Shown here: positions 10,413-40,720 of the stretch, piece by piece | Numbering within the stretch: the stretch's first letter is position 1 | Layout of the letters: every line of letters starts with the position of its first letter | NCBI GenBank assembly: GCA_025355465.1 | Contig: JANXZO010000033.1 | Location: forward strand, 24,864-88,863 | Length of the DNA: 64,000 nt | Direction of reading: 5' to 3' | Source of the DNA: Bacteroidales bacterium | GTDB taxonomy: Bacteria; Bacteroidota; Bacteroidia; Bacteroidales; FEN-979 | Notes under the pieces: model-generated | Told to the model about the DNA's origin: nothing | Seen by the model: only the letters and a program-made list of their open reading frames with translations | Database searches by the model: none | Program-made: the position numbers and the translations under genes

Positions 10413-12380
10413 ATGACGCTGAAAAATATCTCTGAGAAGACATTCTCACTGCTGGTCTTCGGTGTCACCGCAGCGGTACTTGTGGTACTTTCCCTGCTTA
10501 CCGACGGGAACTACGGCGGGACCGACAACTTCAACCACTATTTCATTGCACTTTCTGTGTGGAAGCAGCCCCATAATTTTCTCGACTCCTGGGGCCGGCC
10601 GCTCTACACCATATTAAGTGCTCCGTTTGCACTTCTGGGTTATGAGGCGGTGAAGCTGTTTAATGTTGCGCTCGGATTGCTCACCGCCTGGTTCGCCTAC
10701 CTCACCGTGAAGCGACTTGGAATTACCCGCAGCTGGATGGTGATCATTTTTGTTTGCTTCATGCCGATCTACCTCGTAATGCTGTTTACCGGCCTTACGG
10801 AGATACTTTTCAGCTTTGTCGTGATACTCTCCGTTTACCTTTTCTTTCGCGAAAAATATATCTGCTCGGCGCTGGTACTCTCTTTTTTACCCTTTGCACG
10901 CACCGAAGGATTTGTGCTGCTCCCTTTTCTCGGCCTGGCCCTGATGCTGCGCAGACAATGGAGAGCCATTCCCTTCATCGCCTTTGGTTTTCTGTTTTTG
11001 AGTTTTATCGGAAGTTTTTATCACAAGGATTTTTTCTGGATCATTACCAAGTTTCCCTATCCGGTAACACACGGCCATATTACCTATAAGGTTTCCGGAT
11101 CGCTTTTTCATTTTCTGACCTCACGCGATTTTATCATCGGGTTACCGCTTGAAATACTGTTTCTGTACGGATCGATGCTGCTGGTGCGTGATCTTTTTTT
11201 GAAGGAGAAGAAAGTACAAACGGAGGCCTTATTTATTATGGTGATGGTTTTGGCTCCCTTTCTCACCTACCTCCTGATGCACTCTGTGTTATGGTGGAAG
11301 GCGCTGGGCGGCTCAATCGGGCTTGTTCGCGTGATGGCCGCTGTTACTCCGCTTGCCGCAATCGTTTGCCTGAAAGGTTTCAGTGCCATTGATAAACTCT
11401 TCGGAAACCGCTGGTGGTTAAGCGCACTCTTTGCCATCGGGATAACATATTTCGTCGTCAGGGCCGCTGTTACGATCCACAAGATCCCCCTGAAACCGGA
11501 CCAAGAAGAGACCACCATCAAGAAAGCTGCCAAATGGCTGCGCTCCTCCCCGTATTATGGACGCCCGTTTTTCTTTACCTGCCTTGATTTTCCGTTCTTT
11601 TACGGCGTCAATGCAAACGAGCCGCTGGTGTGCAAATGTGCCTGGTTTTTCTATACCCGGAACCTGGGACCGCTCCCAATTGGGGGAATACTGATCTGGG
11701 ATGCCCATTTCGGTCCCAACGAAAACCAGGTGCCGCTTGATTCGGTGCTGATGAACCCAACTCTGAAACTGTTGAATGTTTTCAGGCCGGATCAGGAGTG
11801 GACGACCTACGGCGGTTATAACTATGAAGTCTATGTAGTTGAAAAAGTCCCTCTTGGAACCCCGTTCAGCAATGGCGCGATCCTCGATTCGATCGCCACA
11901 GATGAGGCTGCAAAATGCATACTTACAAAACGTTATGTGCTCGACTTCGAAAAGAATTTTCCGGGGGTTGAACCATCGAAGACCTCATCCGAAAAATCTT
12001 TTTCGGGAACGAAGTCCGTAAAGATCGACGGAGATTGCGAATTCAGCGCAGGCTTTTTCAAAAAAGCCGCAGAAATTACCAGCGAATCCGACGGAATACA
12101 GCTCTGGTGCAGTGTGAAGGTTTATTCCGACTCGGCATTCACCCTCAATCCGGCCACATTGGTCATCTCGGTTGAAAGTAAAGAGGGTTCATATTATTAC
12201 CGGTCCGTTCCGCTCGAATCGCTGACCCTCGCACCAGGCCAATGGAATACAGTTAAACTTACCGCGCGGATTTCCGAGATCCGGTCGCCGAACGACCAAG
12301 TGAAAGTCTACATCTGGCACCGTGGTAAAACCACCATGTACATGGACGACCTGATAGTTGAGGTGAGAAAAGTGAGGTGA
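10413..12380 (+). CDS. Multi-pass membrane glycosyltransferase-like (GT39/PMT-like) protein with C-terminal soluble beta-sandwich-like domain
   Basis: Many TM helices after a short N-terminus, GGTDNFNHYFIAL motif; C-terminal about 150 aa hydrophilic ending TTMYMDDLIVEV. Confidence 0.65.
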   Translation: MTLKNISEKTFSLLVFGVTAAVLVVLSLLTDGNYGGTDNFNHYFIALSVWKQPHNFLDSWGRPLYTILSAPFALLGYEAVKLFNVALGLLTAWFAYLTVKRLGITRSWMVIIFVCFMPIYLVMLFTGLTEILFSFVVILSVYLFFREKYICSALVLSFLPFARTEGFVLLPFLGLALMLRRQWRAIPFIAFGFLFLSFIGSFYHKDFFWIITKFPYPVTHGHITYKVSGSLFHFLTSRDFIIGLPLEILFLYGSMLLVRDLFLKEKKVQTEALFIMVMVLAPFLTYLLMHSVLWWKALGGSIGLVRVMAAVTPLAAIVCLKGFSAIDKLFGNRWWLSALFAIGITYFVVRAAVTIHKIPLKPDQEETTIKKAAKWLRSSPYYGRPFFFTCLDFPFFYGVNANEPLVCKCAWFFYTRNLGPLPIGGILIWDAHFGPNENQVPLDSVLMNPTLKLLNVFRPDQEWTTYGGYNYEVYVVEKVPLGTPFSNGAILDSIATDEAAKCILTKRYVLDFEKNFPGVEPSKTSSEKSFSGTKSVKIDGDCEFSAGFFKKAAEITSESDGIQLWCSVKVYSDSAFTLNPATLVISVESKEGSYYYRSVPLESLTLAPGQWNTVKLTARISEIRSPNDQVKVYIWHRGKTTMYMDDLIVEVRKVR

Positions 12381-31065: not shown

Positions 31066-31905
31066 ATGAAAAAAATAATGAATCATTTCTCACTGCTTGT
31101 TGTTTTAACTTTCGTTTCCTTAAATGCCGTAAGCCAGGATTCCACCAAACTGGAATATAAATACAAAGCCGGTAATACCTACCGGTACAAGAGTCTTTCA
31201 TCCTATGACATGGTGCAGGAGATGAACGGACAGGAGATGAAGATGTCGGGAGAAAGTACAAGTATCATAAAAATGGAAGTCACCGCGGTGTCGGCCGATG
31301 GCAATATATCCGCTGTCAACTCCTTCGAGGAGATGAAAACCATCATTAAAAATGCGATGATGGACACCACCATGGAGCAAAAGGAGCTGATTGGTAAACG
31401 GGGCAGGGTTACCTTCAGCAAATACGGTACTGAACTTAAGAAAGAGGTGATCGACACCATTACCACAAAAGGATTCTCCTCGGGTGCAAATACATTGCTC
31501 ACCCTGGGATTGGTCCGGCTATCTGAAGGTCGTGTGGCGACCGGTTGCAAATGGTCGGCAAGCCAAACCGATACTGTAAAGATGGGAGAGGGGAGTACTA
31601 TTAGCATCAGCCAGACAGAGTACTCATATATTGGAACAGAGCAGAAAGACAACCGCGACTGCTATAAGCTTGCGTTTGTATCGAAGTCGGAAACCACCGG
31701 CAAGATGAAGCAAATGGGCATGGATATTTTTATAGAAGGGACCGGCGATACCAGCGGCTTAGCCTGGATTGACCGAAACGAAGGTATCCTGGTTAACAAG
31801 GAGAGCAGTTCCACCCAGGAAATGACCTATGCCGTGACAGGCCAGATGAAAATGTCCATCCCCTCAACCCAGACGATCAAGTCTACATACACCCTTGTAA
31901 AATGA
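31066..31905 (+). CDS. Secreted DUF6263-like protein
   Basis: Signal peptide; KLEYKYKAGNTYRYKSLSSYDMVQEMNGQEM pattern. Confidence 0.65.
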   Translation: MKKIMNHFSLLVVLTFVSLNAVSQDSTKLEYKYKAGNTYRYKSLSSYDMVQEMNGQEMKMSGESTSIIKMEVTAVSADGNISAVNSFEEMKTIIKNAMMDTTMEQKELIGKRGRVTFSKYGTELKKEVIDTITTKGFSSGANTLLTLGLVRLSEGRVATGCKWSASQTDTVKMGEGSTISISQTEYSYIGTEQKDNRDCYKLAFVSKSETTGKMKQMGMDIFIEGTGDTSGLAWIDRNEGILVNKESSSTQEMTYAVTGQMKMSIPSTQTIKSTYTLVK

Positions 31906-35798: not shown

Positions 35799-37940
35799 AT
35801 GAATCAACACGCCATAAAACGTTTTCTCCTTTTTGTATTTTTCCAATGTCTACTGCTGGGTTTTTACATACCGGCTGCAGCAGAAGTCAGGTTGCCGTCA
35901 ATCCTTGCGTCGGGCATGGTGTTGCAGCAGAACACGACGGTTACGGTTTGGGGGTGGGCGGATGCCGGGGAAAAAGTGACCGTGGAAGCCAGCTGGCTGG
36001 TCGAGAAACCGGAGGTGGTTGCCGGTGCTGACGGGAAATGGCAGGTAAAGATCCCGACAGGTTCTGCCGGGGGACCCCATTCGCTGACCATTTCAGGAGA
36101 AAACAAAGTCGTATTGACCGACATTCTTTTCGGAGAGGTGTGGGTCTGTTCCGGACAATCAAACATGGAGTTTACCATCAAGATGCTGGGAGGCTGGAAA
36201 TACTGCAAGGCCGACCGAAGGGATCTCCGGAAGAACGACTATTCCGCCATCCGCTTGTGCCAGGTGCGAAAGGCAACTTCAGAAGTCCCGGTTGATACCT
36301 GTTCCGCCTCCTGGTCGAAGGCTGGTGAGCAACGTGTTGCTGATTTCAGTGCCACCGCATTTTTCTTTGCACGTACCCTTTATAACTGGCTTCATGTGCC
36401 CATCGGAGTCATCTCCTCCAACTGGGGAGGTACACCTGCCGAAGCATGGACTGAAAAAACCTTCCTGGAGGCCGACCCGAACCTTAGTTATTACCTGAAT
36501 GCTCCAAACGGACAAAAATGGGATGCCGGAAAACCCTCGTTCCTCTACAATGCAATGATCAACCCCTTGCTCAATTACACCATTCGAGGGGTGATCTGGT
36601 ACCAGGGTGAAACGAACATTTACGATGCTGATTTGTACCGCGAACTGTTCACAACCACCATTAAAAGTTGGCGGAAAGCCTGGAACCTCGGTGATTTTCC
36701 CTTCTGTTTCGTGCAGATTGCACCTTATGATTATGGAGAACCGTTTCCCGCAGCCGCTTATCTGCGTGAAGCACAACTTAAAAGCTTAACCTTGCCCAAC
36801 ACAGGGATGGCTGTTACGATGGATATCGGGGATGCGAAAAACATTCACCCAAAAAACAAGCAGGAAGTTGGATTACGGCTTGGATTACTGGCTCTTGAGA
36901 AAACTTACCGGGATTCAACAGTTCGTTCCACGGGACCTGTGTACCAAAGTATGAGGCGGGAAGGGAGTGCGATCCGCCTGGTTTTCGACAACGCAACACA
37001 GGGGCTTACAACCAATGAACCGGTGCTGACCGGGTTTACAATCGCCGGATCCGATGGTCACTTCAGACCGGCTTTGGCAAAGATAGATGGCAATACCGTA
37101 GTTGTATCGAACGATACGGTGGAATATCCCATGAATGTGAGGTTTGCCTTCACAAATTCCTCCCCCGGCGCACTTTATAACCTTGCCGGGTTACCGGCCT
37201 CCTCCTTCCGCACAGATTCAATTCCGCTTCTGGTAAGAAATGTCCACATTGCCTTCACAACCGACAGCATAAAAAAAGTGACCACCGCGGCGCTTACCTG
37301 TCTTGACTCTTCATGTAAGATCAGGTATACCCTCGATGGGAGCGATCCTTCCATTCATTCGCCGATTTATTCCGCACCGTTGGTGATTGCCGGAACAAAC
37401 CAGGTGAAGGCCAGGGCTTTTCATAAGGATGTCGCTTCGGAAACAATAACAACCTCGCATTTTGAGATGCATCTTGGCGTCGGAAAGAAAATTTCAGTTG
37501 TCAACCCCTGGTCTCCTCGGTATGCAGGTGGTACAAACGCCTTACTTGATGGCATCCGCGGATCAGCTGAAAACTGGGGAGATCAATGGCAAGGGTATCA
37601 GGGTGTTGATTTTGAAGGAATTGTGGATCTTGGAAAAAGCACCCGGGTAAGCAATGTATCCGTTGGTTTTCTGCAGGATAGTCCTTCGTGGATTTTTCTG
37701 CCGGAGAAAGTTACACTCAGTTATTCCGAGGATGGGGTCAGTTTCATACCACTTCAATCATATTCTCCGCAAGAATCGAAGAGAAGGACCGATGCATTGA
37801 TCCGGAATTTTTCATGGCAGGTCAATGTAAACCTCCGGTATCTTCGAATCGGCGCAAAAAATACAGGTACCTGTCCGTCCTGGCACCAGGGGAAAGGTGG
37901 CAAAGCCTGGATCTTCGCTGATGAAATTGTGATAAAATGA
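35799..37940 (+). CDS. Sialate O-acetylesterase-like SGNH protein with C-terminal chitobiase-like and discoidin-like modules
   Basis: VWVCSGQSNMEF, IWYQGETNIYDA, MDIGDAKNIHPKNKQEVG; C-term SCKIRYTLDGSDPSIHSPIY and GGTNALLDGIRGS...WQGYQGVDFEGIVDLG. Confidence 0.9.
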   Translation: MNQHAIKRFLLFVFFQCLLLGFYIPAAAEVRLPSILASGMVLQQNTTVTVWGWADAGEKVTVEASWLVEKPEVVAGADGKWQVKIPTGSAGGPHSLTISGENKVVLTDILFGEVWVCSGQSNMEFTIKMLGGWKYCKADRRDLRKNDYSAIRLCQVRKATSEVPVDTCSASWSKAGEQRVADFSATAFFFARTLYNWLHVPIGVISSNWGGTPAEAWTEKTFLEADPNLSYYLNAPNGQKWDAGKPSFLYNAMINPLLNYTIRGVIWYQGETNIYDADLYRELFTTTIKSWRKAWNLGDFPFCFVQIAPYDYGEPFPAAAYLREAQLKSLTLPNTGMAVTMDIGDAKNIHPKNKQEVGLRLGLLALEKTYRDSTVRSTGPVYQSMRREGSAIRLVFDNATQGLTTNEPVLTGFTIAGSDGHFRPALAKIDGNTVVVSNDTVEYPMNVRFAFTNSSPGALYNLAGLPASSFRTDSIPLLVRNVHIAFTTDSIKKVTTAALTCLDSSCKIRYTLDGSDPSIHSPIYSAPLVIAGTNQVKARAFHKDVASETITTSHFEMHLGVGKKISVVNPWSPRYAGGTNALLDGIRGSAENWGDQWQGYQGVDFEGIVDLGKSTRVSNVSVGFLQDSPSWIFLPEKVTLSYSEDGVSFIPLQSYSPQESKRRTDALIRNFSWQVNVNLRYLRIGAKNTGTCPSWHQGKGGKAWIFADEIVIK

Positions 37941-40720
37941 AAATCTGGCACCTCCGCGCTTTCGCACTGTTTCTCCTCTTTTTCGCTTTTTCTCTCCATG
38001 CTCAGCAACGTATCGTCCTCGGGGTGCTTACTGATTGCCAGTATTGCGATTGTGAAGAGAGCGGTCAGCGGCAGTATCGGTTGTCGCTGGCCAAACTCGA
38101 CAGCTGCATTACGTTTTTCAACTCAGAAAAGCTGGATATGGTTTTTCACCTGGGCGACCTGATCGATCATAACTTCTCCTCCTTCGATAGCGTCCTGCCG
38201 CGGTTTAAAAAATCTATTGCACCGGTTCAGTTTGTGCTGGGAAACCACGACTTCATGGTCAGGAAGCGTCAAAAATCGCAAGTGTTGGGAAAAATCGACC
38301 TTGCTGAGGCAAATTATATAACGGTTCTCGGTGAATGGAAATTTATCACCCTGAATGGCGATGACCTGAGCTATTTTGCGCCTCAGACCGCCCGTCAGAA
38401 GGATGAACGGGATTCGCTGGTTGTATGGCTTGCGCAGAATTTCAGGGCCAACCCGATGCCATGGAACGGGGCGGTTGGAAGGACTCAGATGACTTGGCTC
38501 GAAGCGGAACTTGTGAAGGCGCAGAAGGCCGGACAGAAGGTGATCATCCTGATTCATTTCCCTTCTCTTCCGCAAGCCGGGCACAACCTGTGGAACGACA
38601 AACAGATGGTGGCCCTGATCTCTGCCTATCCGTGTGTTAAAGCTTACTTCAACGGTCACTATCACCCGGGAAATTATGTTTGCCGGAATGGGATCCATTT
38701 TATCAATTTCAAAGGGATGGTGGATACGCGGATGAACGCCTTTGCTACGGTCACCCTTACGTCCGACAGTATTTTTGTTGATGGCCAGGGTCGTCAGCCA
38801 AGTTTTCGGCTAAAGATTGAAGGGGGAAACCTGCCTGTTGTCAAGGTACCGGAACTGGGCAATTACGTAAAGATCGGCCTAGACGAGTCCCTCGACGAGG
38901 TGGTTGAAAAGGCCGCCAATGTCACCCCTTCTGACCGTCAGGCTGCCTGGCAGCAACTTGAATTCATCTCCTTTGTGCATTTTGGACTGAATACCTTCTA
39001 CAACCGCGAATGGGGGGAGGGAGATTATGATCCGAAGCGGTTCAATCCGACGCAACTCGATACCCGCCAATGGGTGAGGACCCTGCGTGATGCCGGCTCG
39101 AAGATGGTCATCATCACGGCAAAACACCACGATGGTTTTTGTCTCTGGCCTTCCAGGACAACTATGCACAGTGTTGCCGCAAGCCCATGGAAGGGGGGAA
39201 TGGGTGATGTTGTGGGCGAACTGGCAGCCGCCTGCAAGGAGTACGGACTCCGGTTCGGAATCTATCTTTCACCCTGGGACCGGCATGAAACTACTTACGG
39301 TGACTCGCCTGCCTACAATGAGTTTTTCAGGAACCAGCTTCGGGAATTACTGAGCAATTACGGTGAAATATCGGAAGTGTGGTTCGACGGTGCCTGTGCC
39401 GAAGGCAGGAATGGCAGGAAGCAGATTTACGACTGGCCATCTTATTATAAAATAGTTCGCGAACTTCAGCCCGGTGCCGTCATTGCCATCATGGGACCTG
39501 ACGTACGGTGGGTTGGAACCGAGTCGGGCTATGGCCGCGAAACCGAATGGAGCGTTCTGCCAGGCAACACGCTCGACACCGACAGCATCGCCGCCTCTTC
39601 ACAGCAAAACCCGGGCGATGGGGCATTTATACCCAAAGACCTGATGGAAGAGGACCTGGGGGGCATCGATCAGCTGCGCAGAGCGAAATCGCTGGTTTGG
39701 TATCCGGCGGAGACTGATGTCTCGATACGACCGGGCTGGTTTTACCATCCGGCTGAGGATGCCCGTGTGAAAAGTCCGGCAAAACTTGTCGACATCTATT
39801 ACAATTCGGTGGGAAAAAATTCGGTCCTGCTGCTCAATGTACCGCCAGACACCCTGGGGCTGATTCACGATAACGATGTGGCAAGCCTCCTGGGTATGCG
39901 AAAGATCCTCGACGAGACTTTCACGGAGAATCTTTTCCTGGGCGCCCGTCGTGTCGAGCGCGACAGCCTCATAGAATACGCGGTGAATAAATCGAAAACC
40001 TTCAATGTAGCGATGTTGGGCGAAGAGATCAGCTGCGGACAGCGGATAGCGAAATTCCGCATCGAAGCCTGGTCAGATGGAAAATGGTTTCAGTTTACCA
40101 GGGGAACTACAGTGGGTTACAAGCGCCTCCTGAGGTTTCCGGAGGTGACCGCTTCTAACGTGCGGATCGTCATCGAACAGTCCCGGAGCAAACCCAACCT
40201 GAACACCTTCGGGCTTTACCGGGAAGTGCGGCCACCCGACACCAAGTCCCGAACACCCCGCTATATCGTTACGCTGGGAACAGAATATCATCCGAAATAC
40301 AAAGGAGGCGGTCCGAATACCGTTGTTGACGGGGTTCGCGGAAGTCTGGAATACAACGATCATGAATGGCAGGGTTACGAAGGTGTGGATTTCGTTGCCA
40401 CTGTCGACCTGGGGGTGGTAAAGCCGGTCGCCTCCCTTTCGGCCGGATTTCTGCAGGAGCAGGAGAGCTGGATCTTTATGCCGGTTTCGGTTATGTTTGA
40501 GATATCCGAGGATGGTATCACCTATTCTCCCGTTGGTGATATTCAAAATGATACTTCGGAAAGGGAAGCTGGTACGAAAATCCGTGATTATCGGATCGAT
40601 CTGAATGCAAGGGCACGCTTTGTCAGGATCCATGCTAAAAACCGCGGGATCTGTCCGGCATGGCATCCCGGCGCCGGATCGAAGTGCTGGATATTCACGG
40701 ATGAAATTGAGATACGGTAA
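37937..40720 (+). CDS. Fusion: N-terminal ADP-ribose/CDP-alcohol diphosphatase-like metallophosphoesterase + GH29 alpha-L-fucosidase + C-terminal discoidin-like module
   Basis: Metallophosphoesterase motifs LTDCQYCDC, FHLGDLIDH, LGNHDFM, LIHFPS, FNGHYHPG, then GH29 motifs FVHFGLNTFYNREWGEG, ITAKHHDGFCLWPS, EVWFDGACAEG in one uninterrupted frame. Confidence 0.9.
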   Translation: MKIWHLRAFALFLLFFAFSLHAQQRIVLGVLTDCQYCDCEESGQRQYRLSLAKLDSCITFFNSEKLDMVFHLGDLIDHNFSSFDSVLPRFKKSIAPVQFVLGNHDFMVRKRQKSQVLGKIDLAEANYITVLGEWKFITLNGDDLSYFAPQTARQKDERDSLVVWLAQNFRANPMPWNGAVGRTQMTWLEAELVKAQKAGQKVIILIHFPSLPQAGHNLWNDKQMVALISAYPCVKAYFNGHYHPGNYVCRNGIHFINFKGMVDTRMNAFATVTLTSDSIFVDGQGRQPSFRLKIEGGNLPVVKVPELGNYVKIGLDESLDEVVEKAANVTPSDRQAAWQQLEFISFVHFGLNTFYNREWGEGDYDPKRFNPTQLDTRQWVRTLRDAGSKMVIITAKHHDGFCLWPSRTTMHSVAASPWKGGMGDVVGELAAACKEYGLRFGIYLSPWDRHETTYGDSPAYNEFFRNQLRELLSNYGEISEVWFDGACAEGRNGRKQIYDWPSYYKIVRELQPGAVIAIMGPDVRWVGTESGYGRETEWSVLPGNTLDTDSIAASSQQNPGDGAFIPKDLMEEDLGGIDQLRRAKSLVWYPAETDVSIRPGWFYHPAEDARVKSPAKLVDIYYNSVGKNSVLLLNVPPDTLGLIHDNDVASLLGMRKILDETFTENLFLGARRVERDSLIEYAVNKSKTFNVAMLGEEISCGQRIAKFRIEAWSDGKWFQFTRGTTVGYKRLLRFPEVTASNVRIVIEQSRSKPNLNTFGLYREVRPPDTKSRTPRYIVTLGTEYHPKYKGGGPNTVVDGVRGSLEYNDHEWQGYEGVDFVATVDLGVVKPVASLSAGFLQEQESWIFMPVSVMFEISEDGITYSPVGDIQNDTSEREAGTKIRDYRIDLNARARFVRIHAKNRGICPAWHPGAGSKCWIFTDEIEIR

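Follow-up and report, generated by a model that had tools for sequence, protein, structure and literature searches.

One open reading frame in the 64,000-nucleotide stretch of Bacteroidales DNA that we analysed (the window) seems to join two enzymes, a calcineurin-like metallophosphoesterase (MPE) and a GH29 alpha-L-fucosidase. Is this a real gene, and if so, do the two enzymes work on the same substrate? A sequence-only reading had proposed that the fusion might couple two steps of glycan breakdown, or that a fucosylated substrate might also bear a phospho- or phosphodiester group. We compared the gene with profiles, structures, and the genomes of relatives, and we weighed other explanations for the fusion.

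Domains of the fused gene

The sequence-only reading had placed a phosphoesterase, a fucosidase, and a discoidin-like tail in a single frame, and the open reading frame and Pfam matches bear this out (Table 1). All three matches are above the curated cut-offs: Metallophos at residues 30-244 of the fusion protein (E = 1.6e-12), Alpha_L_fucos (PF01120) at residues 367-658 (E = 2.9e-38; 132.6 bits versus a cut-off of 25.2 bits), and F5_F8_type_C at residues 789-902 (E = 1.1e-10). The junction had been put near 38830-38920, and alignments move it slightly upstream. Across the junction, the frame of the fusion has no stops, and the other two frames are stop-rich. The N-terminus is of the same kind as in stand-alone relatives of the MPE, and the protein is probably exported to the periplasm.

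Table 1. Locations of the features discussed in the text. Positions are those of the window unless another locus is named.
Feature	Location	Strand	Basis or remark
SASA-type carbohydrate acetylesterase, CHB_HEX_C/Fn3_assoc and F5/8C tail	35799..37940	+	Pfam SASA (4.4e-18), Fn3_assoc, CHB_HEX_C_1, F5_F8_type_C
Fusion gene	37937..40720	+	single ATG-to-stop ORF, 927 aa
Signal peptide-like N-terminus, residues 1-24, MKIWHLRAFALFLLFFAFSLHAQQ	37937..38008	+	read from sequence; lipobox Cys absent
Calcineurin-like MPE domain, to residue 295, ADPRibase-Mn-like	38009..38821	+	PF00149 and 2nxf profile match
Junction, residues 296-306	38822..38854	+	alignments with stand-alone relatives
GH29 alpha-L-fucosidase (GH29-B type) and its beta-sandwich	38855..40222	+	PF01120 and PDB matches
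GH29 nucleophile D484	39386-39388	+	aligned to 3ues D172
GH29 acid/base E529	39521-39523	+	aligned to 3ues E217
C-terminal F5/8 type C (discoidin-like) domain	40259..40717	+	Pfam, 1.1e-10; tblastn
Shared F5/8C tail	window:37500-37937, 40259-40717; L181:369-3317; L213, L174, L177 (tails)		
Peripla_BP_6/ANF-receptor genes	L166:5857-7098; L180:8612-9865		Pfam
Peripla_BP_6/ANF-receptor genes	L183:8067-9308; L240:6521-7771		read from sequence

Metallo-dependent phosphatases share the signature DX[H/X]-GDXX[D/X]-GNH[D/E]-[G/X]H-GHX[H/X] (PMC3407115). The MPE domain has this superfamily (PF00149) signature throughout: TDCQ (D33, Q35), GDLID at 73-77 (D74), GNHD at 102-105 (N103, H104), HFPS (H207), and GHYH at 240-243 (H241, H243). 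These include every motif that the sequence-only reading had named (DxQ, GDxxD, GNHD, HFPS, and GHYH). All of the metal-ligand positions (D33, Q35, D74, N103, H207, H241, and H243) are kept, as is the catalytic H104, and both the ligands and the catalytic residue are invariant in a 20-member alignment of relatives. Judging from these residues, the MPE is a binuclear-metal phosphoesterase whose active site looks complete.

A profile built from the 20 relatives matched PDB 2NXF, the zebrafish ADPRibase-Mn prototype, with E = 1.1e-48 over positions 23-293 (near full length), and the next matches were purple acid phosphatases at about 1e-11. The earlier suggestion that the domain resembles diphosphatases of ADP-ribose and CDP-alcohols is right. 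The first motif of the ADPRibase-Mn-like family is D[V/I]Q, with very few exceptions (PMC4334965). In the fusion it is D-C-Q, with a cysteine between the conserved aspartate and glutamine, and this glutamine is invariant in the 20 relatives. R43 of the human enzyme is essential for catalysis (PMC4334965); R45 of the MPE aligns with R31 of 2NXF, which corresponds to human R43 (by derived numbering), and it is nearly invariant in the relatives.

Within this family, a unique s2s3 region that includes F37 confers the preference for ADP-ribose, and human F37 contacts the base of ADP-ribose (PMC4334965). We looked for a counterpart of F37 in the s2s3 loop of the MPE by alignment and by profile and found none, and the loop is six residues shorter. 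Because the loop is shortened and lacks F37, we call the domain ADPRibase-Mn-like in sequence, not an ADP-ribose diphosphatase, and its sequence does not justify taking ADP-ribose to be the substrate. Overall, the MPE is like the family of 2NXF in its five metallophosphatase motifs (D-x-Q and GNHD among them) and in the arginine that matches R43; it differs in its predicted export, in the D-C-Q motif, in the short F37 loop, and in having a glycosidase attached.

The GH29 half is closest to PDB 4zrx (4e-158), and it also matches the alpha-1,3/4-fucosidases 3ues/3mo4 (1e-122). In a gap-free alignment, D484 and E529 of the fusion fall on D172 and E217 of 3ues, which we take to be the catalytic nucleophile and the acid/base. 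The nearest characterised enzymes are alpha-1,3/4-fucosidases and there is a glutamate at the position of the acid/base, as in GH29-B. From its sequence, this half is a predicted alpha-1,3/4-L-fucosidase whose active site looks complete. It shares the barrel, the beta-sandwich, and the nucleophile and acid/base positions with the GH29-B fucosidases 4zrx, 3ues/3mo4, 8ayr, and 3eyp, and a C-terminal F5/8C-like domain is found in other GH29 proteins as well. Unlike the fusion, these enzymes have no phosphoesterase, and the GH29 of the fusion has no signal peptide of its own.

In an AlphaFold2 model of the whole protein, pLDDT was mostly above 90 over the GH29 barrel and the beta-sandwich. With a single homologue available for alignment, the MPE was modelled poorly, so the model does not show how the two active sites lie relative to each other.

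The stop codon of the upstream SASA gene and the start codon of the fusion share 4 nucleotides (ATGA, 37937-37940), so the two genes are probably co-translated. The F5/8C tail of the fusion, which is carbohydrate-binding-like, is homologous to that of the SASA protein (44% identity by tblastn). More generally, SASA, GH29, and GH92 proteins have in common a C-terminal F5/8C domain that ends in ..CPxWHxGxGxKxWIFxDE.., which looks like a single module for binding or targeting that has been exchanged between glycan-acting enzymes. As the neighbouring genes that we scanned are mostly housekeeping (IF-2, NusA, RsgA, DprA, 2-oxoglutarate dehydrogenase, and others), the SASA gene and the fusion are a two-gene unit, not a polysaccharide-utilization locus. 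The SASA gene and an alpha-amylase-family gene on the opposite strand are the only glycan-related genes nearby, and no SusC/SusD pair was found among the scanned neighbours. In the host genome, the fused MPE is the only member of its family, and PNGase F is absent. It has three GH29 genes including the fusion (the other two are more distant), two GH92 genes, and one GH20 gene.

Elsewhere in the window, a gene for a BlaI-type repressor (Penicillinase_R) is followed, with a 4-nucleotide overlap, by one for a BlaR1-type M56 peptidase (window:45394-47177). Two other ORFs, at 10413-12380 (655 amino acids) and 31066-31905 (279 amino acids), had no Pfam match at E = 0.001.

Rarity and origin of the fusion

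The two domains are usually separate proteins, as the sequence-only reading had supposed. We found no second MPE-GH29 fusion in about 1,000 distinct genomes sampled from the host's family, order, class, and phylum. Nor was there one at 79 further loci with a GH29 and one with an MPE, drawn from a collection of 84,980 species, in a scan that used short peptide patterns, left out near-identical genomes, and was not exhaustive. Literature searches found no description of such a fusion. When we read long open frames that contain an MPE or a GH29, we saw other fusions, none of them MPE-GH29. One 1,342-amino-acid frame (L076:1-3261, on G064:C166) has a large unassigned N-terminal region, a GH29, and a C-terminal stretch that looks SnoaL-like. 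The fusion joins two known types of enzyme, and it is the combination itself that is apparently unique.

Among 100 relatives, 19 other genomes encode an MPE of the same family, in open frames of about 300-355 amino acids, and in none of the 19 is it fused to a GH29. Eighteen of these MPEs come from the host's bacterial family and are 50-58% identical to the fused domain. The stand-alone MPEs end at about residue 295 of the fusion; the closest relatives of the GH29 half (56-65% identical, with the 65% match from the same bacterial family) begin at about residue 306, behind their own signal peptides. The fused junction reads ..RLKIEGGNLPVVKVPELGNYVKIGL.., the stand-alone MPE of one family member (G033) ends in RLKVEGGNL.., and the GH29 of another genome (G030) begins with GNYVTILPG... 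Thus, the MPE tail that is shared with G033 (..RLK[IV]EGGNL) leads straight into the mature N-terminus of the GH29 (GNYV..). These alignments show that the join is tight and that the signal peptide of the GH29 is gone.

In a tree of the MPEs, the fused domain pairs with that of G033 within its bacterial family (support of 97/96). G033 has a SASA gene and then a GH29-F5/8C gene, in the same order as in the window and with no MPE between them; its MPE is on a different contig. Apart from this pair, we found no synteny between the regions flanking the fusion and the loci where relatives have an MPE or a GH29. The two halves are both native to the bacterial family and the SASA-GH29 pair of G033 has no MPE, which argues for a lineage-specific fusion. 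A single-copy, normally stand-alone MPE gene would have come between the SASA gene and the GH29-F5/8C gene and would then have fused in frame to the GH29, so that the signal peptide of the MPE would serve both enzymes. On these comparisons, the gene arose by fusion within this lineage, and the fucosidase's own signal peptide was replaced in the process. As a claim about structure, we are nearly certain that it encodes a real, lineage-specific, exported enzyme that looks bifunctional.

Gene context and alternative explanations

In other genomes, some neighbours of the two parts hint at the breakdown of protein-linked N-glycans. The examples that follow were met while reading loci, not sampled by a rule, and they show that such arrangements exist, not how frequent they are. 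G275 and G181 belong to a different class from the host, and their MPEs are 51-52% identical to the fused one (52% for G275). In G275, Pfam identifies a run of GH20, GH92, GH2, GH29, MPE, GH109, DUF5009 (NagX-like), GH29-B, GH29, and GH35, with GH125 and GH47 further on, and G181 has nearly the same arrangement. GH92, GH125, GH47, GH20, GH2, GH35, and GH29 are enzymes that one would expect to see together for fucosylated N-glycans. The MPE gene of G570 starts within the end of a PNGase F gene, with 4 nucleotides shared (ATGA; L234:1507-4475, G570:C129). In G702, one ORF of 1,134 amino acids (L260:5838-9242, G702:C26) encodes PNGase F followed by a GH29-B with 63% identity to ours; at this site, between the same neighbouring genes, its congeners G511 and G612 have a GH29-B without a fusion partner. 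In G024, from the host's bacterial family, PNGase F runs into GH29-type sequence in one open frame (L301:1-2478, G024:C285). The G702 protein is like ours in that another exported enzyme is fused in front of the same type of GH29, but in both G702 and G024 the partner is PNGase F instead of a phosphoesterase. There is also a glycosidase-like gene 37 nucleotides downstream of the MPE in G033, and the MPE of G587 is fused to a LamG (laminin G-like) domain (L189:637-3189, G587:C11).

A genome that has an MPE is more likely to have a GH29-B as well (Fisher p = 0.0013 for 43 family members and p = 0.001 for 295 order members), in two overlapping samples that were not corrected for relatedness, so this may reflect shared ancestry or lifestyle. 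We rejected the idea that stand-alone MPE and GH29-B genes are usual neighbours: among the loci examined, they lie near each other only in G275 and G181. Most stand-alone MPEs of the host's bacterial family have unrelated neighbours and no adjoining carbohydrate gene. The commonest neighbour that we noticed was a gene for a Peripla_BP_6-type binding protein; in this bacterial family, the gene immediately upstream of the stand-alone MPE is repeatedly of the Peripla_BP_6/ANF-receptor type (Table 1). Overall, the proposal of two coupled steps gains from the N-glycan cluster around the MPE, from the overlap of PNGase F and MPE genes, and from the PNGase F-GH29 fusions; it loses from the unrelated neighbours of most MPEs in the family, from the lack of PNGase F in the host, from the housekeeping surroundings of the fusion, and from the fact that no phospho-substrate is known.

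Could the fusion be an artefact of assembly that joined two genes, from one organism or from two? The genome is a draft in 75 contigs, and the fusion is in no second genome of the genus. However, the join is in frame and at a domain boundary, with the signal peptide of the GH29 cleanly dropped; the closest relatives of both halves are in the same bacterial family; and the contamination of the genome is just 0.07%. No exact repeat of the junction above 18 bp occurs elsewhere in the genome, and neither half departs from the rest of the window in codon usage or GC content, so misassembly is unlikely, and we consider an artefact to be very improbable. We give only slightly more weight to the idea that the MPE has lost catalysis and now serves as a module for structure or binding. 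This is a common fate of fused domains, but here the metal-ligand positions and the catalytic histidine are all kept, identical to those of the free-standing relatives.

A fusion by chance, without a shared substrate, is a serious contender, though we lean against it. The two enzymes would share only the signal peptide and translation: the MPE would keep its ancestral activity outside the cell, salvaging phosphate or nucleosides by hydrolysis of nucleotide diphosphates or CDP-alcohols, while the GH29 removed fucose independently. The clearly ADPRibase-Mn-like profile of the MPE, with R45 kept, fits this explanation, and so does the location of most relatives' MPEs away from carbohydrate genes. 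Also, GH29-B in this order joins other N-terminal proteins, so such fusions may arise easily by accident. On the other hand, the other partners in fusions or overlaps (PNGase F, the N-glycan cluster, and LamG) point to glycans instead of arbitrary proteins, and the loop in which human F37 contacts the base of ADP-ribose is shortened in the fused MPE.

Possible substrates and significance

Our best reading, to which we assign roughly even chances, is a bifunctional exported enzyme whose two activities would meet on one glycan. The target would be fucosylated glycans, most likely of the N-glycan type, and the acetylesterase, the phosphoesterase, and the fucosidase would remove successive caps (an acetyl ester, a phosphate or phosphodiester, and fucose). 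We infer that each domain is active, that the MPE acts on a phospho-glycan, and that the steps are coupled.

A more specific suggestion, which we hold to be less likely than not, is that the MPE cleaves a phospho-substituent from fucosylated N-glycans. The substituent might be phosphate, methylphosphate, phosphocholine, or phosphoethanolamine, and it is similarly doubtful that one enzyme combines such uncapping with defucosylation. Those ADPRibase-Mn enzymes that have been characterised act as diphosphatases on ADP-ribose and CDP-alcohols, and none is known to be a glycan phosphodiesterase (PMC3407115, PMC4334965). Potential substrates do exist: the N-glycans of Dictyostelium include core-fucosylated, methylphosphorylated ones (PMC11795075), and phosphodiesters occur on the glycans of many invertebrates and protists (PMC6994554). 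When gut Bacteroides break down fungal mannan, phosphatases take off the phosphate (reviewed in PMC10154615). There too, phosphate removal is one step in glycan breakdown, but it involves separate proteins rather than one fused protein.

If the coupling is not real, the fusion remains a clean example of a lineage-specific fusion of enzymes. If it is real, it would point to a missing class of enzymes, by which bacteria remove phosphate or phosphodiester caps from N-glycans. Such caps occur on the N-glycans of invertebrates, fungi, and protists. The usual laboratory reagent for removing them is hydrofluoric acid. There is a concrete family of MPEs to assay, namely the fusion, a member from the G275/G181 cluster, and the G570 member that overlaps PNGase F, and if they act on glycans, this would be a new activity for the ADPRibase-Mn-like fold.
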